This document shows positions 4,185-22,100 of a DNA stretch of 64,000 bases, in pieces; the stretch's first letter is position 1, and every line of letters begins with the position of its first letter. The DNA is taken from positions 1 through 64,000 of the forward strand of contig NZ_JACEHK010000002.1 of assembly GCF_025377685.1 (NCBI RefSeq), in the 5' to 3' direction. A program made the position numbers and the translations under genes. Below the pieces are notes generated by a model that saw only the letters and a program-made list of their open reading frames with translations, did no database searches and was not told the DNA's origin. Source of the stretch: Anaerobacillus sp. CMMVII (GTDB lineage Bacteria; Bacillota; Bacilli; Bacillales; Anaerobacillaceae).

Positions 4185-4363
4185 TATTAGTAACATCCTT
4201 TCTTTCGACAAATTCCTACAATTATAATCTTTCCCTAAAAAAAGTTAAAATCAAAGTAAATAAAACTTTTGTAAAGATTTTTCTTAAGGAAGTATAATAA
4301 ATAAAATACATTAAGTTATGAAATGATAGGAAATAAATAATACAATTTTTCAAAAAAAAATCC

Positions 4364-4414
4364 TTGATATAAGTATAAAAGTAAGATAGCATATAAGTGA
4401 TTTATTATATAAGT
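4364..4414 (+). promoter_or_regulatory. ars operon promoter with ArsR-type half-sites
   Basis: Possible sigma-A promoter TTGATA (4364-4369), 17-base spacer, TAGCAT (4387-4392). The octamer ATATAAGT occurs three times here, at 4367-4374, 4391-4398 and 4407-4414. The same octamer forms one arm of the palindrome before arsD, which suggests a shared operator for the ArsR repressor. Confidence 0.6.
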
Positions 4415-4446
4415 AATTAATTATATGGAACTTAAGGGGGGCTAAA

Positions 4447-4788: not shown

Positions 4789-4805
4789 CAAAGGAGAGTG
4801 AAGGA

Positions 4806-5869: not shown

Positions 5870-5912
5870 AAATAGGTAGTCAAAATTATAGTCATTCAGA
5901 AGGAGTATTATT

Positions 5913-6332
5913 ATGAATAAAAAAACAATTTATTTCTTATGTACAGGTAATTCTTGTAGAAGTCAGATGGCAGAAGGTTGGGCAAAGGAACATCTAGGGG
6001 ATGAGTGGAATGTTTACAGTGCAGGGATTGAAGCCCATGGGTTAAACCCGAATGCTGTAAAAGCAATGAAAGAAGCTGGAATTGACATTTCAAATCAAAC
6101 ATCGGATATTATTGATCCTGAGATTTTAAATAATGCTGATTTGGTGGTCACATTATGTGGTGACGCAGCCGATAAATGTCCTATGACACCACCACATGTA
6201 AAGCGAGAGCACTGGGGCTTTGACGACCCTGCTAAGGCTGAAGGAACAGAAGAAGAAAAGTGGGCATTTTTCCAACGTGTACGTGATGAAGTGGGAGACA
6301 GAATAAAACGATTTGCTGAAACTGGGGAATAA
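5913..6332 (+). CDS. arsC: Arsenate reductase, thioredoxin-coupled
   Basis: Cytoplasmic enzyme of 139 residues that reduces arsenate to arsenite, with the low-molecular-weight phosphatase fold. The P-loop CTGNSCRS gives the nucleophile Cys10 with Cys15 and Arg16. The relay cysteines are Cys82 and Cys89 in [12 protein letters not shown], and the catalytic Asp is in FDDPAKAEG. These positions match the thioredoxin-dependent ArsC of pI258 and B. subtilis. It starts at ATG 5913 behind AGAAGGAG, and its product feeds the ACR3 pump encoded just upstream. A terminator hairpin follows. Confidence 0.97.
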
Positions 6333-6343
6333 TAATCAAATAG

Positions 6344-6370
6344 CCAAGAGAAAATTCTCTTGGTTTTCTT
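6344..6370 (+). terminator. Terminator between arsC and arsD
   Basis: Stem CCAAGAGAA / TTCTCTTGG followed by TTTTCTTCTT. It separates arsRBC from arsDA, which has its own operator-like palindrome downstream. Confidence 0.85.
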
Positions 6371-6379
6371 CTTAATCTA

Positions 6380-6401
6380 TATATAAGTATTTGCTTATAT
6401 A
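6380..6401 (+). promoter_or_regulatory. Palindromic operator before arsD
   Basis: TATATAAG - six bases - CTTATATA, a perfect 8-bp inverted repeat 26 bases before the arsD start codon. Its left arm is the ATATAAGT octamer repeated in the arsR promoter. It is probably an ArsR or ArsD site. Confidence 0.65.
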
Positions 6402-6427
6402 CCATTATCTATGTGGAGGTTTTATCA

Positions 6428-6793
6428 ATGAAAAAAGTAGAAATCTTTGATCCTGCAATGTGTTGCTCGACTGGGGTTTGTGGTCCGAGTGTCGATCCAG
6501 AATTAACAAGGGTAGCAGCAGCTGTTTATTTACTCGAAAAGAAGGGGTTCGATATTAAACGATATCAGTTAACAAATGATCCTGATAAATTTGCTGATAA
6601 CAAGGAAATAAATCGTATCTTAATGGAAAAAGGACCAGATGCTTTACCTGTTGTTTTAGTTGATGGGGAAGTTGAAAAAGTTGGTAATTATCCATCAAAT
6701 GAAGAATTAGCTGAGTGGTTTAACGTTGAGTCCGAAGAATTAACCAAAAAACCAAAAACTCGACTATCCATTAATTTAAATAACCTTAAGTAA
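6428..6793 (+). CDS. arsD: ArsD arsenic metallochaperone
   Basis: Protein of 121 residues that hands As(III) to the ArsA ATPase and weakly represses ars promoters. The thiol triad is visible at Cys12, Cys13 and Cys18 in FDPAMCCSTGVCGPSVDPEL. The thioredoxin-like fold is supported by DALPVVLVDGE. The start at 6428 is chosen because TGGAGG lies eight bases upstream; a longer in-frame start at 6413 would overlap that site. It is followed at once by arsA, its usual partner. The distal Cys pair of some ArsD proteins is absent. Confidence 0.95.
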   Translation: MKKVEIFDPAMCCSTGVCGPSVDPELTRVAAAVYLLEKKGFDIKRYQLTNDPDKFADNKEINRILMEKGPDALPVVLVDGEVEKVGNYPSNEELAEWFNVESEELTKKPKTRLSINLNNLK

Positions 6794-6813
6794 ATTTGAA
6801 AGTAGGTGAAACA

Positions 6814-8580
6814 ATGTATCCACTATTCAACCCTAATCATATCAAGACGAAGTTTTTATTTTTAACGGGAAAAGGTGGGGTAGGTAAAACATCAACGGCT
6901 TGTGCAGCAGCTGTAGCATTAGCAGATCGAGGAGATAAAGTACTACTAATTAGTACCGATCCCGCTTCTAATCTACAAGATGTATTTAATATCGAATTAA
7001 CGAGTAAACCGAAAGCTATTCCAAAGGTTGCGAATTTATTTGTTAGCAATATTGATCCAGAAGAATCAGCAAAAGCCTATCGCGAAAAAATGGTAGGCCC
7101 ATATCGTGACAAATTGCCAGCAGCTGTTGTGGCTACAATGGAAGAGCAGTTATCAGGTGCTTGTACAGTAGAAATTGCAGCATTTGATGAATTTACGGGC
7201 TTTCTTACCAATAGCGAGATTGTAGATCAGTACGAGCATATTATTTTTGATACAGCTCCAACAGGCCATACGTTACGACTATTACAATTACCAACGGCTT
7301 GGAATGGATTTTTAGAAGAAAGTACTCACGGAGCTTCTTGTTTGGGGCCATTATCGGGACTTGCAGATAAAAAGGATTTATATGCAAAGGCGGTATCTGC
7401 CTTATCTGATGTGGCGAGAACAACGTTAATTCTTGTTTCAAGACCTGAAAGTTCATCCCTAATAGAAGCCGATCGTGCTTCCCGAGAATTAAAAGAGATC
7501 GGCATCAATAATCAAATCTTGATTGTTAATGGGCTCCTACAGGAGCATAACGAAAGTGATGAAGTGGCGTCTACCTTTTACATGCGTCAAAGAGAGGCTT
7601 TAAGGACAATACCAGAGAATTTAAACCAAATGAAGGTTTACTCATTACCGTATGTACCTTACTCGTTAACAGGAATAGAGAATTTACGTATTCTATTTCA
7701 ACCGTACAAAGCGGAAGTAATGGCAGCGGATGTTGAACGAAGGGAGATCAACCTTCCAGGGTTAAAGGAAGTTGTCGCTGACTTTTCTGCTAATGGTACG
7801 AAGTTAATATTCACTATGGGCAAGGGAGGCGTGGGTAAAACAACGGTTGCATCAGCGATCGCTGTTGGATTAGTCGAAAAAGGACATCGTGTGCATTTAA
7901 CGACTACCGATCCTGCAGCTCACTTAGAATATCAATTCCAATCTGAACAGCAGAATGAAAGATTAACGATTAGCAGAATCGATCCTAAGGTAGAAGTTGA
8001 AAAATATAAAGCAAAAGTCCTGGAAAATTCGAGTAAGGATTTAGATGAAGAAGGTCTTGCTTATTTAAAAGAGGACTTAGAATCACCTTGTACAGAAGAA
8101 ATTGCCATTTTCCAAGCGTTCGCAGAAGTGGTGGCCAAAACAGAAAATGAAGTGGTTGTCATTGATACGGCACCAACTGGGCATACCTTATTATTATTAG
8201 ATGCTTCCGAATCCTATAGCAAGGAAATAGCAAGATCAACAGGGGATGTTCCAGAAAGTGCTAAAATGCTATTGCCACAAATAAGAAATCCAAAAGAAAC
8301 GGCTGTAGTCATTGTAACGCTTGCAGAGGCGACACCTGTTTTAGAAGCTTCAAGGTTACAAGATGATCTAAGACGTGCTAGTATTCATCCGAAGTGGTGG
8401 GTAATTAATCAAAGTCTATTTGCAACGAATACAACTGATCCCATTTTAAAAGGAAAAGCATTAGCAGAGCAAGTGTGGATTCAAGAAGTACATGATAAGC
8501 AGGCAAATAATGCTGCGCTTATTCCTTGGTTCCATGAGGAAAAAATAGGATATAACAGCTTAAAGGATTTTATTAGTTGA
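6814..8580 (+). CDS. arsA: ArsA arsenite-transporting ATPase
   Basis: About 588 residues made of two homologous ATPase halves. Each half has a deviant Walker A (GKGGVGKTST near residue 19, GKGGVGKTTV near residue 336) and a DTAPTGHTL switch/signature (near residues 146 and 451). Candidate As(III)-binding cysteines lie in GACTVEIA and SPCTEEIA, with another in GASCLGPL. ArsA normally drives arsenite through ArsB or Acr3 and receives it from ArsD. The ATG at 6814 follows AGGTGA; a TTG start at 6796 is less likely. It lies 20 bases after arsD in the same transcript. Confidence 0.97.
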   Translation: MYPLFNPNHIKTKFLFLTGKGGVGKTSTACAAAVALADRGDKVLLISTDPASNLQDVFNIELTSKPKAIPKVANLFVSNIDPEESAKAYREKMVGPYRDKLPAAVVATMEEQLSGACTVEIAAFDEFTGFLTNSEIVDQYEHIIFDTAPTGHTLRLLQLPTAWNGFLEESTHGASCLGPLSGLADKKDLYAKAVSALSDVARTTLILVSRPESSSLIEADRASRELKEIGINNQILIVNGLLQEHNESDEVASTFYMRQREALRTIPENLNQMKVYSLPYVPYSLTGIENLRILFQPYKAEVMAADVERREINLPGLKEVVADFSANGTKLIFTMGKGGVGKTTVASAIAVGLVEKGHRVHLTTTDPAAHLEYQFQSEQQNERLTISRIDPKVEVEKYKAKVLENSSKDLDEEGLAYLKEDLESPCTEEIAIFQAFAEVVAKTENEVVVIDTAPTGHTLLLLDASESYSKEIARSTGDVPESAKMLLPQIRNPKETAVVIVTLAEATPVLEASRLQDDLRRASIHPKWWVINQSLFATNTTDPILKGKALAEQVWIQEVHDKQANNAALIPWFHEEKIGYNSLKDFIS

Positions 8581-8620
8581 ATAGGAATAAGTAAAGAATT
8601 ACAAAAGGAGAATGGATGTA

Positions 8621-9049
8621 ATGACAACAAAGAATTACCATGAATTATTTAAAAATCGGATATATATTGGTGGAGCAGACGACGTTAATGATTTACTTGA
8701 TAATGAAAAAGTAGATCTTGTATTTGACTTAAGGGCAGAGGCGCCAACAGAAGAAGTAAACTATAATCGCGTGCACAGTCCAATCGTTGATGATGCAGCG
8801 GACCAAGATGAATCTGTTAAGAAATCCATTGAACAAGTAGTTAAGGCATATAATGAAGGAAAAAATATTTATTTTCATTGCCAAGGCGGAAGTAACCGTA
8901 CAGGTACAGTAGCAATAGGCACGTTGCTTCGTTTAGGTAAAGCAAATTCTATTGATGAGGCAGAAAAAATAGCTAAGGAAGCTAGACCGAAAATAAATGT
9001 AAAGCCAGAGATGAAAGAAACGTTATCTAGAATATTCGCAAATAAATAA
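8621..9049 (+). CDS. Dual-specificity-type phosphatase in ars operon
   Basis: About 142 residues. The signature HCQGGSNRTG is a Cys-x5-Arg phosphatase loop, and the upstream VFDLRAEAPTEEVNY matches the N-terminal part of small Cys phosphatases of the dual-specificity or DUF442-like kind. The start at 8621 is preferred because AAAGGAG is ten bases upstream; an in-frame ATG at 8612 is too close. It is the last gene of the arsDA transcript and ends at a terminator. Its substrate is unknown. Co-transcription suggests a role in arsenic stress, for example on arsenylated or phosphorylated metabolites, but nothing in the sequence proves this. Confidence 0.75.
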   Translation: MTTKNYHELFKNRIYIGGADDVNDLLDNEKVDLVFDLRAEAPTEEVNYNRVHSPIVDDAADQDESVKKSIEQVVKAYNEGKNIYFHCQGGSNRTGTVAIGTLLRLGKANSIDEAEKIAKEARPKINVKPEMKETLSRIFANK

Positions 9050-9068
9050 AATGAACTAGCAATAATTC

Positions 9069-9105
9069 AAGGATTAGGTGAAAAATTTCATCTAATCCTT
9101 TTATG
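9069..9105 (+). terminator. Terminator of arsDA operon
   Basis: Long stem AAGGATTAGGTGAAA / TTTCATCTAATCCTT (one G-T pair) followed by TTATG. It lies between convergent ars and moeA genes and could serve both strands. Confidence 0.85.
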
Positions 9106-9119
9106 TTTGACTGCTAACT

Positions 9120-10388
9120 TTATATCTTCAGCACATTACTACTTCCTTCACCATTTAGCAAAAGAATGTCCACGATATCTCCTTTTTTATAGCCTCTAGT
9201 ACCGCCTGGTAAAACAACCAAACAATCTGAGTTTGCAAGTGACCTAACTACCCCCGATTTATCTAGCCCTACAGGTTGGGCGTAAATTTTACCTTCTTCA
9301 ATTTTCATTTTACTACGAATAAAACGGACAAAAGGATTCGGTTTAGGGAAATCTACTTTTAGAAGTCCTTGAATTTTTTGTAAGTGTGGTTTCTCCGAAC
9401 CTAAGTAGTGTTGAATCCATGGTCGAGCCAATAACTCAAAACCGACAAAGCAAGCAGAAGGATTTCCGGACAAACCAAATAATAGTTTACCTTTGTATTC
9501 AGCAACTGTTGTTACACTTCCGGGTCGCATCCCTATTTTATTAAAGAGGACATTAGCGCCTAACTTTTCATAGACTGCTGGTAAAAAATCAAAATCTCCT
9601 ACTGATACTCCCCCGGTCGTAATTAGAGTGTCTACTTTTCCTAAAGCAGAAACAATAGACTCAAAACATTGATCGAATTGATCATCTAGTTTTCCGAAGT
9701 ATTTTGGATCCCCACCGGCTTTTATTATTTGCGAGACAATCATATAAGAATTACTGTTCCTTATTTTTCCTGGTTTAAGTGCTTCATGAACATCTAGTAG
9801 TTCAGTACCGGTTGCGTACACTCCAATAACAGGCTTTTTAGTTACTGGTACTTTATGATATCCAAATGTAGCTAATAAAGCTTTCACTCCGGGTTCTATC
9901 TTGCGTCCAGGCTCAACAAGTATTTCACCGATACGTGTTTCTTCTGCTTGGAACGAAACGTTATCCCCAGGCTTAAAAGATCGTTTAATAACGACATAGG
10001 TATTTCCACTTCTGACCACTTCTTTCGTTAATTCAAACATAACAATTACATCAGTTCCTTTTGGCATTTTTGCTCCGGTCATAATTCGAATTGCTTGCCC
10101 CTGTTTTGGAACCTTTTTTGCGATCCCACCAGCTCCAACTGTTTCAATTACTTCAAGTTCAATTGGGTTTGTTTGAGATGCTAAAACTGTGTCCTCAGCT
10201 CGAACAGCGAATCCATCTAATGGAGAGCGGTTAAATGGTGGAATATCATGGTCTGCTTTTATTGGCGCATGTAATATGCGGTTATCACTTGCATCTAATG
10301 AAACATATTCACACACACTTTCTCTTGAAAATTGCATGACTCTTTCCACTGCCTCTTGTATTTTAATTGGGTTACGATCGATTTTCAT
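9120..10388 (-). CDS. moeA: Molybdopterin molybdotransferase MoeA
   Basis: Enzyme of 422 residues that inserts molybdate into adenylylated molybdopterin in the last step of Mo-cofactor synthesis. Typical motifs are present: PPFNRSPLDGFAVRAEDT, MTGAKMPKGTDVIVMFE, TTGGVSVGDFDF and LSGNPSACFVGFELL. The length is usual for the family. It is transcribed away from tatA-arrA, and the 330-bp divergent region contains two FNR-type sites. This fits supply of cofactor to the ArrA molybdoenzyme under anaerobic conditions, which is inference from position. Confidence 0.96.
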   Translation of the reverse strand: MKIDRNPIKIQEAVERVMQFSRESVCEYVSLDASDNRILHAPIKADHDIPPFNRSPLDGFAVRAEDTVLASQTNPIELEVIETVGAGGIAKKVPKQGQAIRIMTGAKMPKGTDVIVMFELTKEVVRSGNTYVVIKRSFKPGDNVSFQAEETRIGEILVEPGRKIEPGVKALLATFGYHKVPVTKKPVIGVYATGTELLDVHEALKPGKIRNSNSYMIVSQIIKAGGDPKYFGKLDDQFDQCFESIVSALGKVDTLITTGGVSVGDFDFLPAVYEKLGANVLFNKIGMRPGSVTTVAEYKGKLLFGLSGNPSACFVGFELLARPWIQHYLGSEKPHLQKIQGLLKVDFPKPNPFVRFIRSKMKIEEGKIYAQPVGLDKSGVVRSLANSDCLVVLPGGTRGYKKGDIVDILLLNGEGSSNVLKI

Positions 10389-10717: not shown

Positions 10718-10900
10718 ATGCTATCAAATATCGGAATACCAGGATTAATTTTAATTTTAGTCATCGCACTTATTATTTTCGGACCTAAAAAGCTACCTGA
10801 AATGGGTAGAGCAATAGGTGAAACATTAAAGGAGTTCAAAAAATCAACCCGTCAATTAACAGAGTTTGACGAAGTATCACAGGATAAGACAAAAGAGTAA
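10718..10900 (+). CDS. tatA: Twin-arginine translocase subunit TatA
   Basis: A 60-residue protein with one N-terminal membrane helix ([18 protein letters not shown]), the FGPKKLPE hinge, and an amphipathic helix ([13 protein letters not shown]). This is the standard TatA layout. It begins at ATG 10718 behind GAAGGAGGGG and lies 36 bases before arrA, whose product has a Tat signal. It is probably a pathway-dedicated TatA that exports the folded molybdoenzyme with TatC encoded elsewhere; no tatC is in this window. Confidence 0.95.
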
Positions 10901-10936
10901 CTAAAAAAGGATATAGATGAAGAGGAGGAAAAGTGC

Positions 10937-13366
10937 ATGAGAAGACGTACGTTTCTTAAAGCAAGTGCAGCAGCTGGTGCATTAGCGGCGGTTAGTAGTG
11001 CAATGCCAATTTCATTAAGTAATTTAGAAGAATCGAGAGTCAAAGCAGATGCAATGAAAGAAGAAAAATGGGTTAATAGTTTTTGTACTAACTGTGTAGG
11101 TTGGTGTCCTTTACGAGTTAGAGTGGTAAACGGCAAGGCAGTTCACGTTGAGGGAAACCCACTTTCAAAAACAACTGGCGGGAAGATTTGTCCTAAAGGC
11201 CATTTAGGTCTTCAACAAATGTATGATCCAGATCGTATTAAAGGCCCGATGAAAAGAACGAATCCTAAGAAAGGTAAAAATGAAGATCCGCAATTTGTAC
11301 CTATTTCATGGGATGAAGCATTGGAAACAGTAGCAAATAAAATGAAGGAGCTACGTAATAGTGGTAATGCTCACAAAGTAGTATTAAATCGTGGTCGTTA
11401 CAACACGTTAGATGTTCATTTATTGTACGAACGTTTTTGTAAAGTTTATGGAACTCCAAATAATATATCTCATAGCTCAATTTGTGCTGAGGCAACGAAG
11501 CAAGGTAGACAGATGGCAGATGGAGTATGGGATTATGTGGGAATTGACCTAGAAAGAACGAACTATCTATTATGTTTTGGAATGAGCCCGCTAGAAGCTC
11601 ATCGTCCATATACAAGATTACTTAATGCTTTCGGAAAGGTTCGAGATCGAGCCAACCGTATAAAAATGGTCGTCGTAGATCCGCGAATGAGTGTTTCCGC
11701 TGCTAAGGCAGATGAATGGGTTGCATTAAATCCTGGAACAGACGGAGCTCTTGCTAATGCTATAGCACATGTTATCCTAACCGAAGGGTTATGGGATAAG
11801 AATTTTGTGGGAGACTTTGTAAATCCAGAAGATAAGTTTACAACTGGAAAAACAATTATGGAAACATCAGGGACTAATGAAGCTGGTGAACCGATACCAA
11901 CATTTGTTGAAAATGAAACCCATGGGTTAATAAAATGGTGGAACATGGTTTTAAAAGATGCTACCCCTGAATGGGCGGCAGATATTACAGGTATTTCTGC
12001 AGATCGTATTATTAAAATAGCGAAAGAATTTGCGACAACAAAACCTGCGTATGCTTGGAGTGGTCGAGGAACGGGAATGCGGCCTAATGGAGCCTATTGC
12101 ACATACAGTGTATACGTATTAAATGGGTTAGTTGGATCCATTGATGTACCCGGAGGAATTATTTATCCATCAGGTTCAACATATGCAGAGGATCCAATAG
12201 ATCATACAGTGGTAATGGACGATATTGCTAACAAAGGCTTAGAGCAACCTCGTATAGATAACCGTCGTTCAAAGCAATTTCCAAATGCGGGTGTTGTTAC
12301 AGCACAATTAGGGGAAGCCATATTAAATGAAGACCCTTATAATGTTGAAATGATTTTAGCGTATTTTAACAATTTTACATTCTCAATTCCAAATACGAAA
12401 GTATATGAAGAGGCTTATGCTAAAGTTCCATTTATCGTTCATATTACACCAATGATGGCTGAACTCACGACCTATGCTGATATTATTTTACCTACACCAA
12501 CGAGCTTTGAGAAATGGAATTACACACACCCAGTAAAATCAGGTCTTTATGCGGAAACAAGAATTTCTACACCTGTCGTACAGCCTTTATATGACACGAT
12601 GCAAACGGCTGATATTACACTTGAGCTTGCAAAGCGTATTGGGGGATCAGTGGCAAAGACATTCGAAGGGGTTAATGTTCAAGAATATATTAAGGCACGC
12701 TTAGGAGAAATGCAGTCTTGGGATGAGTGGATGGAAAAAGGAATTCATGTAAAAGATCCGTATAAGATTGGTTCTACCCGAGAGATAGGTTTTCCAACAC
12801 CTACTGGGAAGTTTGAATTTTTCGCGAACACTACTAAACTATTATTTGAAGAAAGAGGAATTTCTGTAACGAATGATGCTGACATGGCACGTATAAAGGT
12901 TGATGCAAGAGGCGATCTAGTTTACCTTCCACATTGGGAAAAACCTAAGGATTTAGGTACTAAAGAAGAGTATCCGCTATTATTAATCTCCTATAAATCA
13001 GCACTTGCAGGTGAAGGTCGTACAGCAAATAACCCTTGGGCTCAAGATCGTTTCTTAGTCCAGTATGGAGCGGGAAATACGACTTTTGCTGAGATTAATC
13101 CAGATACTGCAGAAAAATGGGGGATTAACGAAGGTGATTTAGTTAAAGTGTCGTCATTATTTGGAGAAGTACAATGTCAAGCCAAGCTTTCGGAAGGAAT
13201 TCATCCTGATATCTTAGCCATGGTTTATGGTAATGGTCACTGGGCTTATGGAAGATTTGCGAAAGATAAAGGCGTAAACCCGAACGATTTAAAAGGTACA
13301 GATTATGAATATATTTCAGGATCATCAAGTTACTATAATACACGCGTAAAAGTAACAAAAGTTTAG
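10937..13366 (+). CDS. arrA: Respiratory arsenate reductase-like molybdoenzyme, large subunit
   Basis: DMSO-reductase-family catalytic subunit of 809 residues. It has a Tat signal (RRRTFLKASAAAGALA), a [4Fe-4S] motif C50-x2-C53-x3-C57-x27-C85, and a probable Mo-ligand Cys183 in ISHSSICAEA, with RGRYNTLDV just before it. The molybdopterin-dinucleotide domain is at the C-terminus (AEINPDTAEKWGINEGD). The subunit set, the adjacent ars operon and the nearby PhnD/kinase/regulator genes favour ArrA, which reduces arsenate to arsenite outside the membrane. Alternatives are selenate (Srd-type), polysulfide or tetrathionate reductase; the sequence alone does not settle the substrate. It begins at ATG 10937 behind GAGGAGG. 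Confidence 0.8.
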   Translation: MRRRTFLKASAAAGALAAVSSAMPISLSNLEESRVKADAMKEEKWVNSFCTNCVGWCPLRVRVVNGKAVHVEGNPLSKTTGGKICPKGHLGLQQMYDPDRIKGPMKRTNPKKGKNEDPQFVPISWDEALETVANKMKELRNSGNAHKVVLNRGRYNTLDVHLLYERFCKVYGTPNNISHSSICAEATKQGRQMADGVWDYVGIDLERTNYLLCFGMSPLEAHRPYTRLLNAFGKVRDRANRIKMVVVDPRMSVSAAKADEWVALNPGTDGALANAIAHVILTEGLWDKNFVGDFVNPEDKFTTGKTIMETSGTNEAGEPIPTFVENETHGLIKWWNMVLKDATPEWAADITGISADRIIKIAKEFATTKPAYAWSGRGTGMRPNGAYCTYSVYVLNGLVGSIDVPGGIIYPSGSTYAEDPIDHTVVMDDIANKGLEQPRIDNRRSKQFPNAGVVTAQLGEAILNEDPYNVEMILAYFNNFTFSIPNTKVYEEAYAKVPFIVHITPMMAELTTYADIILPTPTSFEKWNYTHPVKSGLYAETRISTPVVQPLYDTMQTADITLELAKRIGGSVAKTFEGVNVQEYIKARLGEMQSWDEWMEKGIHVKDPYKIGSTREIGFPTPTGKFEFFANTTKLLFEERGISVTNDADMARIKVDARGDLVYLPHWEKPKDLGTKEEYPLLLISYKSALAGEGRTANNPWAQDRFLVQYGAGNTTFAEINPDTAEKWGINEGDLVKVSSLFGEVQCQAKLSEGIHPDILAMVYGNGHWAYGRFAKDKGVNPNDLKGTDYEYISGSSSYYNTRVKVTKV

Positions 13367-13379
13367 GGAGGTGTAAAAA

Positions 13380-14000
13380 ATGAGAATAGGAATGGTAATA
13401 GATATAGATAAATGTACAGCATGTCAAGCTTGCACGATTGCGTGTTGCTCTGAAAATAATCTTCCAAAAGGTATTCAAAGAACAAATATCTACCCAATTG
13501 GACCAAAAGGTAAATTTCCGAATGTCTCTATGCAATTTGTCTCAATGGGCTGTATGCAATGTGATGATGCACCTTGTGTGAAGGTTTGTCCAATTAAGGC
13601 AACATATATGAGGGAAGATGGAATAGTTATACAAGACAACGATAAATGTATGGGATGTAAATATTGTATGACAGCGTGTCCGTATGAAGCTCGAAATTTC
13701 AATAAATATGCACCGTTTACTGAAGAGTATGACGAAAAGCCAGAGTTTATAAATCCTAGTTCGAGTCTATCTCCAAGACATACTATTGAAAAGTGCGATT
13801 TCTGTAGCCATCGCCAAGACGCTAGTGATGGAATTGCTGCTACAGCATGTGTAGTAGCCTGCCCTTCAGAGGCACGGTATATTGGTGATCTTGATGATCC
13901 AAACAGTGAAATAAATCAACTGATTAGAAGAAAGCACGCTCAACCTTTACGACCAGAGCAAAAAACAAAGCCAAAAGTTTATTACGTGTGGGATAAATAA
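13380..14000 (+). CDS. arrB: Four-cluster ferredoxin subunit (ArrB-like)
   Basis: Electron-transfer subunit of 206 residues with four cysteine groups, enough for four [4Fe-4S] clusters: C12-C15-C18-C22, C58-C61-C66-C70, C90-C93-C96-C100, and C139-C142 with C157 and C161. There is no signal peptide, so it would be co-exported with the Tat-tagged large subunit. It starts 13 bases after arrA behind GGGAGGTG. It passes electrons from the NrfD-type membrane subunit to the molybdenum subunit. Confidence 0.93.
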   Translation: MRIGMVIDIDKCTACQACTIACCSENNLPKGIQRTNIYPIGPKGKFPNVSMQFVSMGCMQCDDAPCVKVCPIKATYMREDGIVIQDNDKCMGCKYCMTACPYEARNFNKYAPFTEEYDEKPEFINPSSSLSPRHTIEKCDFCSHRQDASDGIAATACVVACPSEARYIGDLDDPNSEINQLIRRKHAQPLRPEQKTKPKVYYVWDK

Positions 14001-14026
14001 ATTCCTAAAGAAAGGGAGGTATTAAA

Positions 14027-15193
14027 ATGTCAGTTAACACAGAAGTTCAAACAAACGTACCTTTAAAGAATTCTATTATTCCTTCAGGTACGGCGTTAAT
14101 ATGGGTTGTTGTTTTTGGGGTCTTAGCTGCAGTAGGACTATTCGCTGCTGGAACCATTTTAGTTCAAGGTCAGTCTTCACTAGCAGCGACAAACTTAGTT
14201 CCATGGAATATCTTTGTATCAGCCTATGTATTCTTTGTTGTTACGAGTACTGGACTATGTTTCATATCTGCATTTGGCCACGTTGTTGGAATTCACAGGT
14301 ATGAAATTATAAGTAAAAGAGCAGTAACTATGTCGTTAATTATGCTAGCGGTAGGTATGATGGCAATTCTTTTAGACATAGGCCGTCCGCTAATGATGAT
14401 TAACATGTTGTTTTCACCAAATCCAACATCACCTATGTTCTGGATGGGATTACTTTATGGGGTTTATGGCTTCTTATTAGTGATGGAGCTAATATCTATA
14501 ATTAAAGGTAACCATAAAGCAACAAAAATCTGGGGAACACTTGGTGTTCTTTCAGCGCTAGTTGCTCACGGAACATTAGGTGCATTATTCGGGATGCTTT
14601 ATGCTAGAGATTTATGGTACGGAGAATATATGCCAATCTACTTTATTCTTTCAGCATTTGTATCTGGATTAGCAGCATTATCATTGTTTATCTTTTTATC
14701 TTATGGGTCTCAAAAAAAATATATCCCTTATAAGTTAGAAGGTCTGTTAAGTGAAATCGGTCGAATTTTGGCTTATGCTTTAGGTGCATTACTATTCTTC
14801 ATATTTTGGAAGTCAGTTGCTGGACTTTACGCAGGAAAAGTAGAAACACAAATGTTATTATTCGGTGAATACGCAGTTAGGTTCTGGGTATTTGAAGTAA
14901 TCATTGGAATATTAGTTCCTATGTTTATCCTTGCAAATAAATCAATGAGAACAAAAGGTGGTATTGTACTTTCAGCAATTCTAGTATTAACAGGTTTAGT
15001 GATGGCTCGTTTAAATCTAGTAATTGTAGGGCAGTTATCGCGTCCATTTGAGCAAGGATTGGCATCATATAGTGCCAACGCTTTAGAAATAATGTTCTTT
15101 GCAGGATTGTTTGGAATCGCAGGTCTCCTTTACATGATTGCAAGCACTATACTGAAGTTTGAAAAATATGAAGAAAAAATGAGTAAACAATAG
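14027..15193 (+). CDS. arrC: NrfD-type membrane quinol-oxidising subunit
   Basis: Integral membrane protein of 388 residues with about ten hydrophobic segments, matching the NrfD/PsrC family that oxidises menaquinol and anchors Mo-Fe-S reductases. Family features include the polar LLDIGRPLMMINMLFSPNPTSPMFW stretch (about residues 111-135, quoted in part: LDIGRPL, SPNPTSPMFW) and LARLN-like VMARLNLVI near the C-terminus. It has its own GGGAGG site and follows arrB by 26 bases. NrfD proteins bind no heme. Confidence 0.92.
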   Translation: MSVNTEVQTNVPLKNSIIPSGTALIWVVVFGVLAAVGLFAAGTILVQGQSSLAATNLVPWNIFVSAYVFFVVTSTGLCFISAFGHVVGIHRYEIISKRAVTMSLIMLAVGMMAILLDIGRPLMMINMLFSPNPTSPMFWMGLLYGVYGFLLVMELISIIKGNHKATKIWGTLGVLSALVAHGTLGALFGMLYARDLWYGEYMPIYFILSAFVSGLAALSLFIFLSYGSQKKYIPYKLEGLLSEIGRILAYALGALLFFIFWKSVAGLYAGKVETQMLLFGEYAVRFWVFEVIIGILVPMFILANKSMRTKGGIVLSAILVLTGLVMARLNLVIVGQLSRPFEQGLASYSANALEIMFFAGLFGIAGLLYMIASTILKFEKYEEKMSKQ

Positions 15194-15214
15194 TCATATA
15201 AGAAGAAGAATGAG

Positions 15215-15250
15215 CAACAAACAACTGGTTACAAGATCAGTTGTTTGTTG
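15215..15250 (+). repeat. Stem-loop between arrC and chaperone gene
   Basis: Perfect 13-bp inverted repeat CAACAAACAACTG / CAGTTGTTTGTTG with a 10-base loop. It is followed by TCTCTTATT rather than a clean T run, so it is more likely a partial terminator or an RNA-processing stem that lowers chaperone expression relative to arrABC. Confidence 0.8.
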
Positions 15251-15293
15251 TCTCTTATTAAGTCACTCCGTCAAAATCGAAAGGAGACATCTT

Positions 15294-15974
15294 ATGTCAC
15301 AATCTACAGAATTAAACGTAATTGACAACAAATCTGAGGCTAGAGCTTATATTTACAAGTGGTTACAAGAAAAATTTGTAACTCCGAATGGAGAAAAATA
15401 CACTGAATTTGATTTTTCTACATTAAGGGAAGCGCTAGCTTATATTGGAATGAACAATTTGGAAGCACCGATACTTGAAATGGAAGAAACCCTCAATCAA
15501 AACTATAGTGAGAAAGATGCAGTATTAGAATTTTGCAGATTGTTCTACGGACCACAAAAGATTCCTTGTCCACCGTTCGGTTCCTATTATGTTGACACGA
15601 TGATACCAATGAATAAGTCGGCAGTAATGGCTCTTGAAGAATATTTGAATTGGGGACTTGTATTGTCTGAAAACACAGGGTGCTTTCCAGATCACATTGC
15701 AATTGAATTGGAATTTATCTATTATTTAGCAGCTAAAGAAGAAGATGCTAGAGAGCAAAGGGATTATCTAAAGGCAATAGAATTAGTAGATGCTCAACAA
15801 CAATTTTTAGCAAAGCACTTAATTAAATGGGTACCACAGTTTGTAGAAAAAACTGTAGAAACTACAAATCTGAAATTATTCAGTGGACTAGTAAAGTTTA
15901 TTAACGAGTTTCTTAAAGAAGATTATAGATTATTGAATGATATAAAAGAGCAATACAAACAGTCAATGAATTAG
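15294..15974 (+). CDS. arrD: TorD/DmsD-family molybdoenzyme chaperone
   Basis: Cytoplasmic all-helical protein of about 226 residues of the TorD/NarJ family, which binds the Tat signal of a molybdoenzyme until cofactor is inserted. The family signature region is FCRLFYGPQKIPCPPFGSYY followed by DHIAIELEFIYYLAAKE. The start at 15294 follows AAGGAGA; an in-frame start at 15210 would translate the upstream hairpin. The partner is most likely ArrA. Confidence 0.92.
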   Translation: MSQSTELNVIDNKSEARAYIYKWLQEKFVTPNGEKYTEFDFSTLREALAYIGMNNLEAPILEMEETLNQNYSEKDAVLEFCRLFYGPQKIPCPPFGSYYVDTMIPMNKSAVMALEEYLNWGLVLSENTGCFPDHIAIELEFIYYLAAKEEDAREQRDYLKAIELVDAQQQFLAKHLIKWVPQFVEKTVETTNLKLFSGLVKFINEFLKEDYRLLNDIKEQYKQSMN

Positions 15975-16057
15975 ATTCAAATTCTTAAATGAAATAAAAA
16001 AACGAACATGAACAAATTATGTAATTGTAAGCATAGAGGGAGAGGGGTTGATAGTAT

Positions 16058-17215
16058 ATGAGCACAGCAATAAGTAAGTGGATTGAGGGGCATTCAATGG
16101 ATCTATCTTTAGTTCAATGTTTGAATAAGCAAAGTCGCAGTGTTGTATGTGATAAGTGTATCGGCGGCTGTCCAACTAATGCATTACAATTAAACAATAA
16201 AAGTGAAATAGATTTTCTTAAAGAACAGTGCTTATATTGTGGGAAATGTGTCAGTGACTGCTCGGTTTTAGCATTTGATTTCATCTCAAAGCCATATACA
16301 AAAACAATTAAACAAATGACTGCTTATCCTAATAGTTCAATTACATGCGAACAATTTGAAAAATACCAAAAAGGTATTAAAGTACCATGTTATTTACACC
16401 TTGATACTGCAATGCTCATTCATTATGTCACAGTTAATAGAAAATTACCGACAGACCATCAGAATAATATGATTGTGGAATTATATATAGGAAGCTGTGA
16501 ATCTTGCCCTCAAAATAAGCATATATATATATCAGTGCAAGATCATCTGACACAAATTCAAGAATGGTTTGATCAAGTAGGTATGGCTATAAAGATAGTT
16601 GTCTCATTAGATGATAAGCACTACTTTTCTAAAATAGATGAAGAGGCTGCTGATGGGATTACTCGAAGGACATTACTTAAAAGCCTAGCGTTTAACTTTT
16701 TTAAACGTACAGAAGAACAAGAAATAGAAACGAAAGATACTGCTCCTGAGCAATTAAATGTGAAGGGAAAATTTAAATACAAACGGGAATTAATTAATCA
16801 AGGGTTTACGCTTTTTCAAGATCAAGTTGAAAATAATTGTAACGTATTACCTCATTCAGATTTTGCAATGGTAAAGAAAAAGGAGCCATGTACTCATTGT
16901 CGTATTTGCGAAAAAATCTGTCCTACTAAAGCTTTGATTTGGGAAGATAACAACAGTAACTCAACATTAAACTTTTTTCCACAAAAGTGTATTGCTTGTC
17001 GTCGTTGTGAAAGTTGTCCAATGGGATCAATTTCGGTTCTGCCTATTTCTGCATACGATTATATTCACACTAATAAACAGCAAATAGCAGAGTTGATCAC
17101 TGGAAGATGTATAGATTGTGGGGATAGTATTAGAAGTTTAGGTGATACACAAGATTTGTGCCCTATCTGCATAAAAAAAAGAGAAATCGCTCAAAGCTTA
17201 TTTGATAGATTATAA
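16058..17215 (+). CDS. Polyferredoxin-like 4Fe-4S protein with zinc ribbon
   Basis: Protein of 385 residues that I do not recognise by name. Two N-terminal clusters are indicated by C31-x2-C34-x3-C38 and C58-x2-C61-x2-C64-x3-C68. A middle domain has VPC (C111) and SCESCP (C147, C150). Two more clusters follow (C278-x2-C281-x2-C284-x3-C288; C311-x2-C314-x2-C317-x2-C320), and a C-terminal ribbon C351-x2-C354, C368-x2-C371 probably binds zinc. There is no signal peptide or membrane segment, so it is cytoplasmic. It follows arrD by 83 bases and precedes a related gene. A role in electron supply or in maturing the reductase is a guess. Confidence 0.8.
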   Translation: MSTAISKWIEGHSMDLSLVQCLNKQSRSVVCDKCIGGCPTNALQLNNKSEIDFLKEQCLYCGKCVSDCSVLAFDFISKPYTKTIKQMTAYPNSSITCEQFEKYQKGIKVPCYLHLDTAMLIHYVTVNRKLPTDHQNNMIVELYIGSCESCPQNKHIYISVQDHLTQIQEWFDQVGMAIKIVVSLDDKHYFSKIDEEAADGITRRTLLKSLAFNFFKRTEEQEIETKDTAPEQLNVKGKFKYKRELINQGFTLFQDQVENNCNVLPHSDFAMVKKKEPCTHCRICEKICPTKALIWEDNNSNSTLNFFPQKCIACRRCESCPMGSISVLPISAYDYIHTNKQQIAELITGRCIDCGDSIRSLGDTQDLCPICIKKREIAQSLFDRL

Positions 17216-17255
17216 TAAATTACTTATATATCTAGCGAAGAGGTGCATAAATAAA

Positions 17256-18263
17256 ATGTTACAAAAATGGTTGGCTAATCCGTTTGGTAATAGCACTTCA
17301 ATACAATTGGTCGAGAGTTATTGTCTGAATTTTATAAACGAGGAAATTAACTGTTCACACTGTAGAAATGTTTGTCCAACAAATGCAATTATATTTAAAA
17401 ATGACAAAATAGAACTTGATCATACTAAATGTAATAAATGTAGTGTGTGCGTTCACCACTGTCCAACAGATGCTTTATTTTTGGAAACTGAAACATTGTA
17501 TCATTATGAAAACAGATCGCATCTAGAGAATATGTTTGTTTGACTTGCAAAAAACAAAAAGGCATCAAGATGATATCGTCTTACCATGTCTATCGGTTAT
17601 TACACCAGAACTTATTTTAGTTGCACACATGCATAACAAATGGGTTCAAGTTTTTTATAATCATCATAAATGTAGAAATTGCCCTTTAAACCATAACGTT
17701 TCAAAAACAATGGAAACTCTAAGAGAACTAGATTACATTACTAACTATGATATTGAGCTTATTGATGATGAGTTTGATAAAAAGGCAAGGAAAAAAAGCC
17801 TAAAAAAACAACAATGGTTTACGTTTCATAAACAGAAGTCAAATGAACAAACGGAGAAATTAATTTTAATTGAACAAGTAAAATTAATATTGAAAATAAA
17901 ATCCCAACACCTGAAAGAAGAAAGTATCTTGCTGAATATCTAAAACGTGAAAAGCAGGAAATGTACTTGTCAGTAAATTTAGCTGAAAAATTTAAATTAA
18001 TCACATTAACGGTAGATGATCATTGTGATTTATGTGAAAAGTGCGTAAATCATTGTCCAACTGGAGCATTAAACATTGTAAATAACGACGAGGGGATAAC
18101 CTTATCGCATAATGTAATACAGTGTATAGATTGTGAACTTTGCAGTGACAGCTGTTTATATATAAATCGAGCACTTCAAACGTGCCTTTATGAAGGAGTG
18201 GTTTTACCTAGAGTCTTGAAAGGGGCTATTCCTTCTGAGTGGAAAAAAGGTAAAAATCTATAA
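17256..18263 (+). CDS. Second polyferredoxin-like protein (frameshifted)
   Basis: Paralogue-like partner of the gene upstream, about 335 residues if the frame is repaired. The first part has CSHCRNVCPTNA and CNKCSVCVHHCPTDA. The middle part has LPCLSVI and KCRNCPLN, matching the VPC/SCESCP middle domain of the neighbour. The end has CDLCEKCVNHCPTGA and CIDCELCSDSC. The frame changes near 17538-17560 (possibly two single-base losses, since TCKK and KTKRHQ lie in different frames) and again near 17880-17895, where the IPTPERRKYLAEYL frame takes over. Each is explained by one missing base. No stop lies within the repaired frame. Function unknown; probably cotranscribed with arr. Confidence 0.75.
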
Positions 18264-18266
18264 TGT

Positions 18267-18300
18267 AAAGTAGTTAATTTAAGTATTAACTACTTTTTTG
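18267..18300 (+). terminator. Terminator of arr operon
   Basis: Perfect 12-bp stem AAAGTAGTTAAT / ATTAACTACTTT, 6-base loop, then T-rich tail, just after the second polyferredoxin gene. Confidence 0.93.
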
Positions 18301-18485: not shown

Positions 18486-18636
18486 CTAAGGTGCTGTTAT
18501 TTATAAACGTTTAATGACAATTAACGAGAAATCAGCAAAAGTAACTTAAATAAAGGTATATTAGTTTTGTGGATTATTTTAATTGTTAATACTTGAACTG
18601 TATGAGCTTAACTTTTGGAATTGCGTCTACATTACC

Positions 18637-19563
18637 ATGTTAAATGAGGTGAACATTATTAAAACACAATATTTATTCCTATTCTATTTATTTATATTAG
18701 TAGCATGTGATAAAACGCCCGAGTTAGAGTTTATTCATTTAGTCGAAAAAAATACAGCAGAAGTCTTTGTTGAAGAAGAAAACGACGCTACAGTAAAAGT
18801 TGCTTTTGCCTCTGTTGTTTCTCCAGAAGAAACGCGATATAAATATGAATTATTAATTAAATATATTGAAAGAAAAATTGACAAACCGATTACTGTTATT
18901 CAAAGACAGACGTATGATGAAATTAATCAGTTATTAAAAGATGGGGATGTTGATTTAGCTTTTATATGTTCACTTTCCTATGTTATCGGTAAGGAAGAGG
19001 GATATGTACTAGATATTGCAACTACTAAGATTAATGGAAATGATCATTATCAAGCATATATCATTACCCATATTAATAGTGATATATACTCAATTGAAGA
19101 TTTAAGAGGGAAAAATTTTGCTTTTGTTGATCCTTATTCATATTCAGGTAAGTTAGCATTATTAGGGATGCTCGATGATTACGGATATTCAGAAGATACA
19201 TTTTTTGATGAAACATTTTATACGTACAGTCATGACTATTCAGTAAAAGCAGTAGCGAGAGGTGCTGTTGATGCTGCAACGGTTGATGGAATTACCTTCG
19301 ACATGTTAGTAGAAATTGAAAATGAAGATGCTAAGCAAATTAGAGTTATAGATAAGGGGCCGTTGGCAGGAGCACCGCCAATAGTTGTTTCACATAAAAT
19401 TGATCCCAATTTAAAAAAAGAATTAAAGGATTTAATCTTATCTTTAAAAGATGATCCTGCTGGGAAAATAATCTTACAAGAATTAATGATTGAAGAATTT
19501 GTAGTCATTAACCAAGAGAACTATGAACCAATAAGAAACGTATTAAATTTAATGGGTGAATAA
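18637..19563 (+). CDS. PhnD-like oxyanion-binding lipoprotein (ArrT/AioX-like)
   Basis: Extracytoplasmic binding lipoprotein of about 308 residues. A signal peptide ends in the lipobox LVAC (LFYLFILVACDK). The body matches the phosphate/phosphite/phosphonate-binding PhnD family: VAFASVVSPEETRYKYELL, IDKPITVIQRQTYDEI, DLAFICSLSYV, LRGKNFAFVDPYSYSG, AVDAATVDG. There are no ABC transporter genes beside it. Instead it directly precedes a sensor kinase, as AioX does for arsenite oxidase and ArrT for some arr clusters. It probably binds arsenate or a related oxyanion and signals to the kinase. The start is uncertain: 18637 gives a normal signal peptide, but no strong ribosome site is seen. Confidence 0.8.
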   Translation: MLNEVNIIKTQYLFLFYLFILVACDKTPELEFIHLVEKNTAEVFVEEENDATVKVAFASVVSPEETRYKYELLIKYIERKIDKPITVIQRQTYDEINQLLKDGDVDLAFICSLSYVIGKEEGYVLDIATTKINGNDHYQAYIITHINSDIYSIEDLRGKNFAFVDPYSYSGKLALLGMLDDYGYSEDTFFDETFYTYSHDYSVKAVARGAVDAATVDGITFDMLVEIENEDAKQIRVIDKGPLAGAPPIVVSHKIDPNLKKELKDLILSLKDDPAGKIILQELMIEEFVVINQENYEPIRNVLNLMGE

Positions 19564-19565: not shown

Positions 19566-21469
19566 ATGAATATTAAAAGAAAACACTGGAGCTTTTTTTG
19601 GGGGCTTCCATCCACATTAAAATTTATGGAATGGTTTTCATTGTAATTACTTTAGTGACAGTTTTTAGTTTATTTGCAATAAGAATGTCAATCACTGAGA
19701 CGTTATCTCAACAGTTAGATGATAGGGTAAAATCAATCGGTAGTGATGTAGCGGCAAAAAGTAGTGACCTTATGTTGACAAATAATATTTATGCCCTACA
19801 AAAACTTGTAAATGATACGAAAGCTAATAATAAAGACATTGAATATGTTTTTATTCTAAATGAACGTGGGAAACCACTTGTTCATACTTATGAAAATCAA
19901 ATGTTAAGTGACGAGCTCAAATTATATAATAAAGTAGATAATAACGACAATGTAAATTTAGTTTTATTTAACTCTGAGAAAGGAATAATTCGTGATGTTG
20001 CAGTTCCAGTCGTAAAGGGGTTGGGTGGAACTGCAAGAGTAGGTTTACGAAATGATTCTTTGAACAAAGCGTTAGTCGATGTAACGAAACATATATTTAC
20101 GATTATGTTTTTTGTATTAATTGTATCTGTTGTAATTGTTTTGGGATTAACAAGGATCATTACATTTCCAATTACAAAATTAGTGGGTTTAACTAAAAAA
20201 GTGGCAATAGGTGATTTCAGTTCAAGAATAAGTAATTTTCCGAATGATGAGATTGGAAAACTAACACATTCTTTTAATTCAATGCTTGGGAATCTCGAAA
20301 AAGAAAGAAATGAAAAAGAAGAATATTTTAAAGAAATATTAACTAGGAATCGAGAATTAACTCTATTAAACAGTATTTCAGCAAATATAACATCAATCGA
20401 TGAAATGAAAAAGGTTTTGCAAAAGTTTGTTCAGAAAATCGTACATGAACTTTCATTAAATAGTGCATTTATTCAAATAAAAATAGGAGATCAAATCGAA
20501 GTGATTTCTGATTCAAAGGAAAAGTGTTTTTTAGACATGTATAGTAATGAGGCAGAAATCAAGGAACCAAGATGTTTATGTGAAAACGAGGAGGCTAAAG
20601 TAAATAATACTTTTCCATTATTAGTGAAAGATCAATATGTAGGGAAAATACAAATATGTAATACGAAAGAATTGGATCCTTATTCGGTAAAAATCTTAAA
20701 AACGATCGGAAATCAACTTTCAGTAACCATTGAGAATATTCAACTTTGGCAAGAGCTGAAAAAGAAGGAAAAAATCCGTGAAATGCTTTTAGAAAAAGTA
20801 ATGACCGTGCAGGAAGAGGAAAGGAAGAGAATTGCAAGAGAGCTGCATGATGAAACGAGTCATTCCCTTTCATCGATTTTATTAGGTTTAAAAGTCTTAC
20901 AAGAATCCCCATCAGATGAAGTCAGAAAAAATGAGATAAAAAAATTAAGAGAACTAACCCATAATACGATTGAAGAGGTACATGAATTAGCTTGGCAGTT
21001 AAGACCGAGCATCCTTGATAAATTCGGTCTAAAAGTAGCAATTGAACGGTATATTGAAGAATTTAAAAAGAAATTTCCGGCAGAGTTTGATTTAATAATT
21101 AACGGAATTGAGACGGATAGACTAAGACCAGAGATAGAGACAGCCATTTTTCGGGTTGTTCAAGAGTCATTAACGAATATTTTGAAGTATTCCAATGCTA
21201 CATCAGTAAGCGTTATAATTATGAAAAATCGATCCATCATTTCAGTCATTATTGAAGATGATGGTGTAGGTTTTAATATTGAAGCAGTGTTAAATAAAGA
21301 CCCTTCAAAATACAATTTAGGTATTAGAGGAATGCAGGAACGAGTTTCTTTATTAGGTGGGACGCTTAACATCGAATCTGAACGTGATCAAGGTACAGTA
21401 ATTATGGTTAAAATTCCGTTAAAACCTGAGGGGGGAGATATACTTGACAGTCAGAATCATGCTAGTTGA
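19566..21469 (+). CDS. NarL-type sensor histidine kinase (N-terminal frameshift)
   Basis: Membrane sensor kinase of about 634 residues. Order: membrane helix, extracytoplasmic sensor of about 130 residues, second helix (IFTIMFFVLIVSVVIVLG), HAMP, GAF-like segment, HisKA_3 dimerisation domain with phospho-His in RIARELHDETSHS (His417 counted from 19598), and HATPase_c (NILKYSNAT, DDGVGF, GIRGMQERV). The natural start appears to be ATG 19566, two bases after the binding-protein stop (MNIKRKHWSFF), but that frame stops early. One missing base in the TTTTTTTGGGGG run at 19592-19603 would join it to the main frame, which otherwise must begin at TTG 19598. It likely pairs with the lipoprotein upstream and the regulator downstream. 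Confidence 0.88.
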
Positions 21470-22100
21470 TGATCATCCTGTATTTCGTTCCGGTTTAAAA
21501 ACTATTATTCTAGCAGAAGAAAATTTTGAAGTTGTTGCTGAGGCTGATAATGGGAAGACCGCCATCGAAAAAGCGTGTCGAACTAATCTGGATATCATCA
21601 TAATGGATATTAATATGCCTGAAAAAGATGGTATTGAAGCAACAAAAGAAATTATGGCCAAAAATCCTGATGTGAAAATATTAATTTTAACAATGTATTC
21701 AGATGAGGCATATTTGAAAGAGGGTCTTAATGCAGGTGCTTCTGGGTATGTGTTAAAAAGAGCTGTAGATACAGAACTAATTACTGCAATCAAGACAGTA
21801 ATTAGAGGCGAACACTATATTTATCCAACTTTAATTCCTAGTTTATATGGTAAACCTAAAGAACAAAATATAGATATAAACACTAGTGTTGAAGATGATC
21901 TACTTAGTCAAAGAGAAAAAGAGGTTTTAAGGCTCATAGCTCTAGGTTATACACAAAAGGAAATCTCGACAGAGCTTTTTATTAGTATTAAAACTGTAGA
22001 AACTTATAAGGCAAGATTAATGGATAAGATTGGTGCAAAGAAAAAGTCGGACCTAGTTAAGTATGCTTTGAAAACAGAATTATTAACAAACATGGATTAA
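21444..22100 (+). CDS. NarL/FixJ-family response regulator
   Basis: Response regulator of 218 residues with an N-terminal receiver (acidic pair VDDHP, phospho-Asp55 in IIIMDINMPEKDG) and a C-terminal LuxR-type helix-turn-helix (LSQREKEVLRLIALGYTQKEISTELFISIKTVETYKARLM). It starts with TTG inside the kinase gene (26-base overlap) behind GGGGGAGAT, indicating translational coupling. It is the cognate partner of the kinase and a candidate activator of the arr operon 7 kb upstream; the target is inference. Confidence 0.95.
   Translation: MTVRIMLVDDHPVFRSGLKTIILAEENFEVVAEADNGKTAIEKACRTNLDIIIMDINMPEKDGIEATKEIMAKNPDVKILILTMYSDEAYLKEGLNAGASGYVLKRAVDTELITAIKTVIRGEHYIYPTLIPSLYGKPKEQNIDINTSVEDDLLSQREKEVLRLIALGYTQKEISTELFISIKTVETYKARLMDKIGAKKKSDLVKYALKTELLTNMD

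Follow-up and report, generated by a model that had tools for sequence, protein, structure and literature searches.

The gene arxB2 (product also called ArxB') is published as lying directly upstream of arxA, and the passages of PMC6549141 that deal with it state that its role is unclear, treat the gene as specific to arx clusters and note that homologs from arr clusters were undescribed. Also pertinent is NapF, a cytosolic, NapA-bound protein that, according to the relevant part of PMC10609526, is required for reconstitution of the NapA Fe-S cluster in Rhodobacter, its effects being marginal for both E. coli and Wolinella. In a stretch of 64,000 nucleotides from Anaerobacillus sp. CMMVII (NZ_JACEHK010000002.1, positions 1 to 64,000; hereinafter, the window), an operon for a molybdenum (Mo)-dependent reductase ends with genes for two polyferredoxins (PF), PF1 and PF2. 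Here we describe the relationship of PF1 to ArxB2, a predicted MvhD-type domain between its ferredoxin modules and the genomic associations of the family, and propose that these proteins contribute a redox step to the maturation of Mo/W enzymes exported by the twin-arginine translocation (Tat) system.

Domain architecture and relationship to ArxB2

The original prediction for this locus, made without database searches, held that two Fe-S proteins encoded after the chaperone gene share a core of paired ferredoxin motifs, a VPC or LPC element, CxxCP and further ferredoxin motifs, and that one of them additionally has a zinc ribbon. These motifs are confirmed: PF1 has VPC and PF2 LPC, CxxCP is present in both, and a C-terminal zinc-ribbon-like CxxC...CxxC is found in PF1 and absent from PF2. 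Only the first protein, however, is encoded in one piece (385 aa); the second is spread over three pieces in non-matching frames. This split, the MvhD-like domain, the internal twin-arginine (RR) motif and the link to ArxB2 had all been overlooked.

In the alignment of 55 family members on which all conservation counts are based, the cysteine pattern, which exceeds chance expectation, is kept in 54-55 of the 55 proteins. The consensus of the RR motif across the family is (S/G)-R-R-(E/D)-(F/L)-(F/L). For PF1, Pfam detects ferredoxin-type families only, and none of the best 25 of 65 NCBIfam models reaches its cut-off. The AlphaFold2 model of PF1 has a predicted local distance difference test score (pLDDT) of 86.9 and a predicted template modeling score (pTM) of 0.84; among the 50 Foldseek matches listed, no solved chain covers the entire architecture, and only partial matches of the ferredoxin type are found.

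The domain between the two ferredoxin modules is predicted to have the MvhD/FlpD fold. The Pfam FlpD/MvhD profile (PF02662) directly matches five family members in the 28 PF-bearing genomes searched, three of them above the cut-off (L060, L063 and L078, 24-27 bits vs 22.3; here and below, L numbers label individual homolog loci or sequences in sampled genomes); the L141 protein scores 17 bits, and no match is reported for L120 or for PF1 of the window. An hhalign comparison of the 55-member middle domain with eight FlpD sequences yields a probability of 79% (E 1.5e-5), as against 0.1-2% in the controls (NapF, B subunits, and the N-terminal PF module compared with FlpD). When the model of the L063 middle domain (49 sequences, L039 being omitted from the alignment used for folding; pLDDT 84.9) was used as a Foldseek query, ranks 1-4 of 883 were occupied by 5odc_D, 8rvu_F, 5odh_D and 7bkb_F (probability 1.00, query TM-score (TMq) 0.51-0.56; next match 0.44), which a sequence search with a FlpD protein names as MvhD-type subunits. 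Searching the PDB by sequence profile places 5odc_D second, with an E-value of 0.078 that is non-significant alone, behind an unrelated chain at 0.033. MvhD carries a [2Fe-2S] cluster.

Judging by sequence, PF1 is homologous to ArxB2. A protein encoded on Sulfuricella denitrificans plasmid pSCD matches residues 54-385 of PF1 (86%) with 23% identity (E 9e-15), and one from plasmid pORIO3 of Cereibacter azotoformans ORIO has the PC motif, CxxC and the RR motif, with several cysteines of the second ferredoxin half missing. Each of the two genes immediately precedes a GRGWG-type arxA, with X-S-R regulators and TorD encoded alongside, a position by which these proteobacterial proteins are identified as ArxB2. 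We call PF1 ArxB2-like, and not ArxB2, because the catalytic subunit of the window has an RGRY motif and branches with ArrA-type enzymes. Azoarcus KH32C pAZKH (L121) was considered as a further arx case and rejected, its catalytic subunit having no GRGWG and falling outside the Arr/Arx rows; it kept the arx label in the PF label tree with arr, arx and srr and in the 21-sequence catalytic tree. New for the ArxB2 family are the MvhD-type redox domain, the conserved Tat-like motif and the presence of homologs in ArrA-type, Srr/Psr-like and other Mo enzyme clusters.

Distribution, genomic context and phylogeny of the family

A search of a phylum sample of 398 genomes with a profile built from five homologs (E 1e-25, five candidates scored per genome) detected PF in at least 43; all such counts are lower bounds, and absence of PF means that it was not detected. 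With a single-protein query and a threshold of 1e-15, PF is recovered from 4 of 397 genomes belonging to the order. We analyzed the genes within about 9 kb of PF at 54 homolog loci, window excluded (L067, L141 and L142 are outside these counts, and the near-identical or identical loci L056/L057 and L052/L053 are counted separately). A Mo catalytic subunit is encoded near PF in 38 of these loci, TorD in 37, NrfD in 21 and any of the three in 43, and in 22 the torD gene is within 300 bp of PF. At the level of genomic sites, TorD is near PF in 37 of 55 (L067 counted as lacking it), compared with 0.9 expected from the TorD counts per genome; at the level of genomes, TorD is present in 40 of the 43 with PF vs 34 of the 355 in which PF was not detected (odds ratio 126). 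The expectation that PF travels with Mo-reductases is thus borne out.

The partner enzymes vary and include ArrA-type, ArxA-type, Srr/Psr-like and other proteins. An ArrA-like gene (E 1e-150) is present in 13 of the 398 genomes, 12 of which also have PF (hypergeometric p 7e-12), and in 9 of the 13 PF is part of the same cluster; in the remaining four, the L139 contig ends beside torD, and the L140, L143 and L144 clusters show no PF within the stretch read. The original view that these are not standard arr genes is therefore only partly right: the gene is published as arxB2 and, in the available passages of the arx literature, is undescribed for arr, yet it is found in the majority of the ArrA-like clusters sampled here. 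In the open-licence literature, we found no description of an ArxB2 homolog in arr or srr clusters.

Some copies are found without a recognised reductase. In the near-identical loci L052 (9168-12920) and L053 (6888-10640), the gene order is tatA-PF-mobB-moeA-mobA-tatA, with no reductase recognised within about 9 kb; in L069, PF adjoins tatC, and in L073 its neighbors include fdhD and a gene for an aldehyde ferredoxin oxidoreductase. Elsewhere, PF is next to cbiZ (adenosylcobinamide amidohydrolase; L064 and L093), with ABC-transporter-like open reading frames (ORFs) in L064; no link to a Mo enzyme is seen in these two loci, where both contigs end near PF.

The PF tree reflects host lineage strongly and enzyme type weakly. 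When mapped by host family, it requires 14 changes for 13 families (minimum 12; shuffles 32.3, with 0 of 200 as low), whereas arr linkage, assigned to 10 PFs, requires 7 changes (shuffles 9.4, with 9 of 500 as low). The PF of the window clusters with those of srr-like operons from its own genome and order (100/100), the catalytic subunits being in different clades. An arsenic-specific role was considered and rejected, given that unrelated reductases accompany PF and that its tree tracks host family far above enzyme type.

A predicted role in the maturation of exported Mo/W enzymes

We propose that PF1, and PF2 if intact, is a cytosolic, NapF-like redox factor that provides electrons during the maturation of Tat-exported Mo/W-bis(pyranopterin guanine dinucleotide) (bisPGD) enzymes, a reading to which we assign a probability of roughly 0.55. 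This is the most economical explanation in view of the lack of a recognised export signal, the many predicted clusters, the MvhD-type adaptor, the linkage to TorD and, for some copies only, to Tat and molybdenum cofactor (Moco) genes, and the limited loyalty to any enzyme type. Supply of electrons for cofactor maturation was one of the roles originally suggested; of these it is the best supported, gene context being the observed part and electron delivery the inferred one.

Under this proposal, PF would sit beside TorD on the catalytic subunit while the latter is still in the cytosol. Electrons from a presumed soluble donor would enter the MvhD-like domain, run through the putative ferredoxin clusters and build or reduce the [4Fe-4S] cluster or the cofactor of the enzyme prior to export, in close analogy to what has been suggested for NapF and its partner NapA. 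The helix bearing the RR motif could serve as a contact site at the chaperone or Tat side, mimicking part of a signal peptide. Should this be correct, the TorD/Tat scheme of molybdoenzyme maturation gains a redox step. Together with the MvhD-type domain and the Tat-like motif, the occurrence of PF homologs outside arx clusters, a few of them alongside Tat and Moco genes, turns the orphan arxB2 into a testable maturation factor. More tentatively, ArxB2-like proteins might constitute a general, substrate-independent redox branch of Mo/W enzyme maturation, in which a ferredoxin-MvhD-ferredoxin wire supplies the chaperone-bound precursor with low-potential electrons and an internal mimic of the Tat signal ties release for export to the finishing of the metal centers; this broader version is a possibility that we would not yet favor.

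Several observations weigh against the proposed maturation role. The RR motif is not followed by a hydrophobic core (best 12-residue hydropathy 0.33, n=55, vs 1.65 in 30 partner-enzyme signals with a recognised motif), and such a core is central for chaperone binding according to the pertinent part of PMC3316669. The resemblance to NapF is unspecific, the hhalign values for the NapF halves (80.9 and 72.1) being matched by those for B-subunit ferredoxins (80.7 and 74.7). Some enzyme-type signal is present in the PF tree, weak for arr linkage alone and as low in 0 of 200 shuffles when the arr, arx and srr labels are taken jointly. Co-occurrence with TorD across genomes may be inflated by a common anaerobic way of life; three PF-bearing genomes show no TorD, and in 34 of the 74 TorD-bearing genomes no PF was detected, so that PF is not generally required. 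Finally, 11 of the 54 loci have no nearby Mo subunit, TorD or NrfD, and in 7 of the 54 the Tat and Moco genes that were looked for are missing as well.

Membership in the NapF family is not claimed, because PF1 scores 34.3 bits with the napF model TIGR00402, below its cut-off of 102.2, and because of the unspecific similarity. An origin from a permuted NapF (N module with the NapF C half, 80.9 vs 63.6; C module with the N half, 72.1 vs 64.3) was likewise rejected, B-subunit ferredoxins being about equally good. An RR motif resembling a Tat signal opens 6 of the 8 NapF sequences taken (L099 and L122-L126 are among the NapF sources), although NapF is described as cytosolic.

Alternative explanations

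An unlikely alternative is that PF is a module through which electrons enter respiration: taken from NAD(P)H, ferredoxin or a hydrogenase as cytosolic donor, they would be delivered either to the membrane subunit on its cytosolic side or to the quinone pool, so that a classical dehydrogenase is bypassed. MvhD-type domains are adaptors that link hydrogenase or formate dehydrogenase with HdrA, a row of five cluster sites suits a wire, and NrfD is encoded near PF at 21 of the loci. Nevertheless, in the other 33 of 54, NrfD being the only anchor type looked for, none is recognised nearby, copies occur beside Tat or Moco genes without a reductase, and PF also accompanies ArxA-type arsenite oxidases, in which electrons flow in the opposite direction.

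A rather improbable alternative concerns the second copy: PF2 could be a true pseudogene in decay, and the tandem pair a dying, functionless duplication. The three PF2 ORFs (17202-17543, 17536-17943 and 17961-18263) do not form one frame; the first and third are in register with each other, the second is not, and neither outer ORF enters it. Moreover, the twin arginine is lost in the alignment with the family hidden Markov model (HMM), and two PFs within one stretch are found at just one other locus, L068. On the other hand, when the stop-to-stop pieces were searched separately against the family HMM, all three matched, in consecutive order and with the cysteine motifs kept. From these sequence matches, PF2 is taken to be a single family member that is split in the assembly. 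Other conserved genes of this assembly are split alike in L005, namely addA in three frames (1161-4605) and nrfD in two (13923-15112), and each is a single frame in L006 from the same genus; sequencing indels are therefore suggested, and the PF2 frame breaks are more likely to be assembly indels than signs of decay. Within the window, acr3 (4806-5869) also appears frame-split.

It is very unlikely that PF belongs to the mature reductase as an accessory small subunit, exported by Tat together with the catalytic subunit. The gene does lie within the operon, and Azoarcus CIB arxB and arxB2 are termed putative small subunits in the relevant text of PMC6683785; against this, the RR motif of PF1 is internal and has no hydrophobic core, some copies are far from any recognised reductase, and PF phylogeny tracks host lineage above enzyme type. 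Least probable of all is a role in sensing, of redox state or of metal, by which PF would govern expression or export of the enzyme and not its maturation, an idea prompted by the zinc-ribbon-like tail, the many clusters and the upregulation of arxB2, but not arxABC, under arsenite in Thioalkalivibrio jannaschii (as stated in the passage of PMC6620896 concerned), given that Pfam detects no DNA-binding or kinase domain in PF1 and five homologs, and that the window copy has dedicated X-S-R regulators beside it (a substrate-binding protein is encoded in 8 of the 54 loci).

The reductase operon and its surroundings

The operon comprising tatA, the catalytic Mo subunit, the Fe-S subunit, the NrfD anchor, the TorD chaperone and then PF1 is real (Table 1); Pfam and NCBIfam matches at 10718-15974 corroborate the earlier assignment of tatA, the three reductase subunits and the chaperone to one set.

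Table 1. Features of the reductase operon, PF1 and PF2 and the adjacent regulatory genes (window coordinates)
Feature	Position	Strand	Evidence
tatA	10718..10900	+	Pfam TatA_B_E 78 bits, 2.8e-22; NCBIfam PRK14861 above cut-off
Mo-bisPGD catalytic subunit, predicted ArrA-type/sister of ArrA, 809 aa, Tat signal MRRRTFLK, RGRY motif	10937..13366	+	NCBIfam, PDB, tree
Multi-cluster Fe-S subunit (B)	13380..14000	+	Fer4_11 and further matches; top NCBIfam model ArrB, 198 bits against a cut-off of 450
NrfD/PsrC-type membrane anchor (C)	14027..15193	+	Pfam NrfD 1.8e-30
TorD/NarJ-type chaperone	15210..15974	+	Pfam Nitrate_red_del 3e-26; true start perhaps more downstream
PF1, intact ArxB2-like polyferredoxin, 385 aa	16058..17215	+	Family HMM 261 bits (PF1 among the HMM's own input sequences)
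PF1 first ferredoxin module, residues 18-76 (C21, C31, C34, C38 / C58, C61, C64, C68)	16109..16285	+	Pfam Fer4_9 and others; Cys 54-55/55
PF1 MvhD/FlpD-like domain, residues 92-185, C97, PC111, C147, C150	16331..16612	+	Four Cys 55/55; Foldseek; hhalign
PF1 internal Tat-like twin-arginine motif TRRTLL, residues 202-207	16661..16678	+	R203 51/55, R204 50/55, then F/L F/L
PF1 second ferredoxin module, residues 270-330	16865..17047	+	Pfam Fer4_7; Cys 54-55/55
PF1 zinc-ribbon-like CxxC...CxxC, residues 351-371	17108..17170	+	Sequence; four Cys in 50-52/55
PF2 piece 1, first ferredoxin module	17256..17543	+	Family HMM 1-86, 3e-22; ATG 17256 likely start, frame breaks afterwards
PF2 piece 2, MvhD-like part, LPC and CxxCP, other frame	17536..17943	+	Family HMM 100-220, 6e-10
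PF2 piece 3, second ferredoxin module	17961..18263	+	Family HMM 225-312, 4e-20 (stop-to-stop segment from 17874)
Terminator-like hairpin then T run, operon end	18267..18296	+	Fold -11.4 kcal/mol, z -3.7 vs shuffles
AioX/ArxX/ArrX-like oxyanion-binding lipoprotein (PhnD superfamily)	18583..19563	+	Pfam Phosphonate-bd 1.6e-56
Sensor histidine kinase	19598..21469	+	HisKA_3, HATPase_c, HAMP
LuxR-type response regulator	21444..22100	+	Response_reg, GerE

The catalytic subunit is best called ArrA-type on the basis of its sequence, and its substrate is a prediction. Its best NCBIfam model is ArrA (NF041714), with 689 bits where the equivalog requires 1600. Seven further RGRY enzymes encoded at PF loci also miss this cut-off, with 988-1166 bits, and it is reached in none of the 398 sampled genomes. 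The protein matches ArrA of PDB entry 6cz7 with an E-value of 2e-183 and carries RGRY, the ArrA-type motif, instead of the GRGWG of ArxA, where the definition given in the part of PMC6549141 on motifs is (R/K)GRY for ArrA and GRGWG for ArxA. In a 21-sequence tree, the window enzyme and the RGRY enzyme of L139 (1565-3976; 52% identity, the nearest relative found) form the sister group of the ten remaining RGRY enzymes (98/98), and the two GRGWG ArxA sequences fall outside, which makes the window subunit a sister of the ArrA-type enzymes of Bacillota; the L139 contig is only 6 kb long and ends beside torD, so that the presence of PF there cannot be judged. The adjoining ars operon and the X-S-R-type genes are only consistent with a predicted arsenate reductase activity.

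That ars operon, which encodes an ArsR-type regulator, an Acr3-like protein, a low-molecular-weight phosphatase fold, ArsD, ArsA and a dual-specificity phosphatase, is immediately upstream together with moeA (4447-10388). In the AioX/ArxX/ArrX-like lipoprotein, a cysteine may, judging by eye, be the candidate AioX-type pocket residue. A second operon of the same genome (L005, 8682-17884; C2:655.7-664.9 kb) consists of tatA, PF, a rhodanese lipoprotein, a PsrA/PhsA-like catalytic subunit and B, C and D genes, and continues with two further rhodanese-like proteins; we take this layout to resemble the srr operon of selenite reductase.

Comparison with known systems

Compared with ArxB2 clusters, the window differs in that the partner enzyme is predicted to be ArrA-type, PF follows torD and an extra, frame-split copy is present. 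The order A-B-C-D also differs from the C-A-B or A-B order that the pertinent text of PMC2500031 gives for Arr clusters. In torD-linked formate dehydrogenase operons, "hypothetical ferredoxins" were mentioned in a 2015 survey (PMC4464133, in the portion consulted).

When the PDB is searched with a profile of the whole family, the polyferredoxins MvhB and FwdF give the best sequence matches, with the overlap confined to the ferredoxin repeats; both belong to another pathway, that of methanogens. Relative to MvhD/FlpD, only profile positions of about 25-100 of 123 are matched, the N-terminal CC-x-W-C of FlpD is reduced to the single C97, and the MvhD-like domain of PF, unlike MvhD/FlpD, is fused between ferredoxin modules. 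NapF differs from PF in its size (about 165 aa), the N-terminal location of its RR motif and the lack of a match with the MvhD-like domain (hhalign 0.9%). Like PF, however, it is a multi-cluster protein with four cluster motifs that is encoded in the operon of a Tat-exported Mo enzyme and has a twin arginine preceding a ferredoxin pair.

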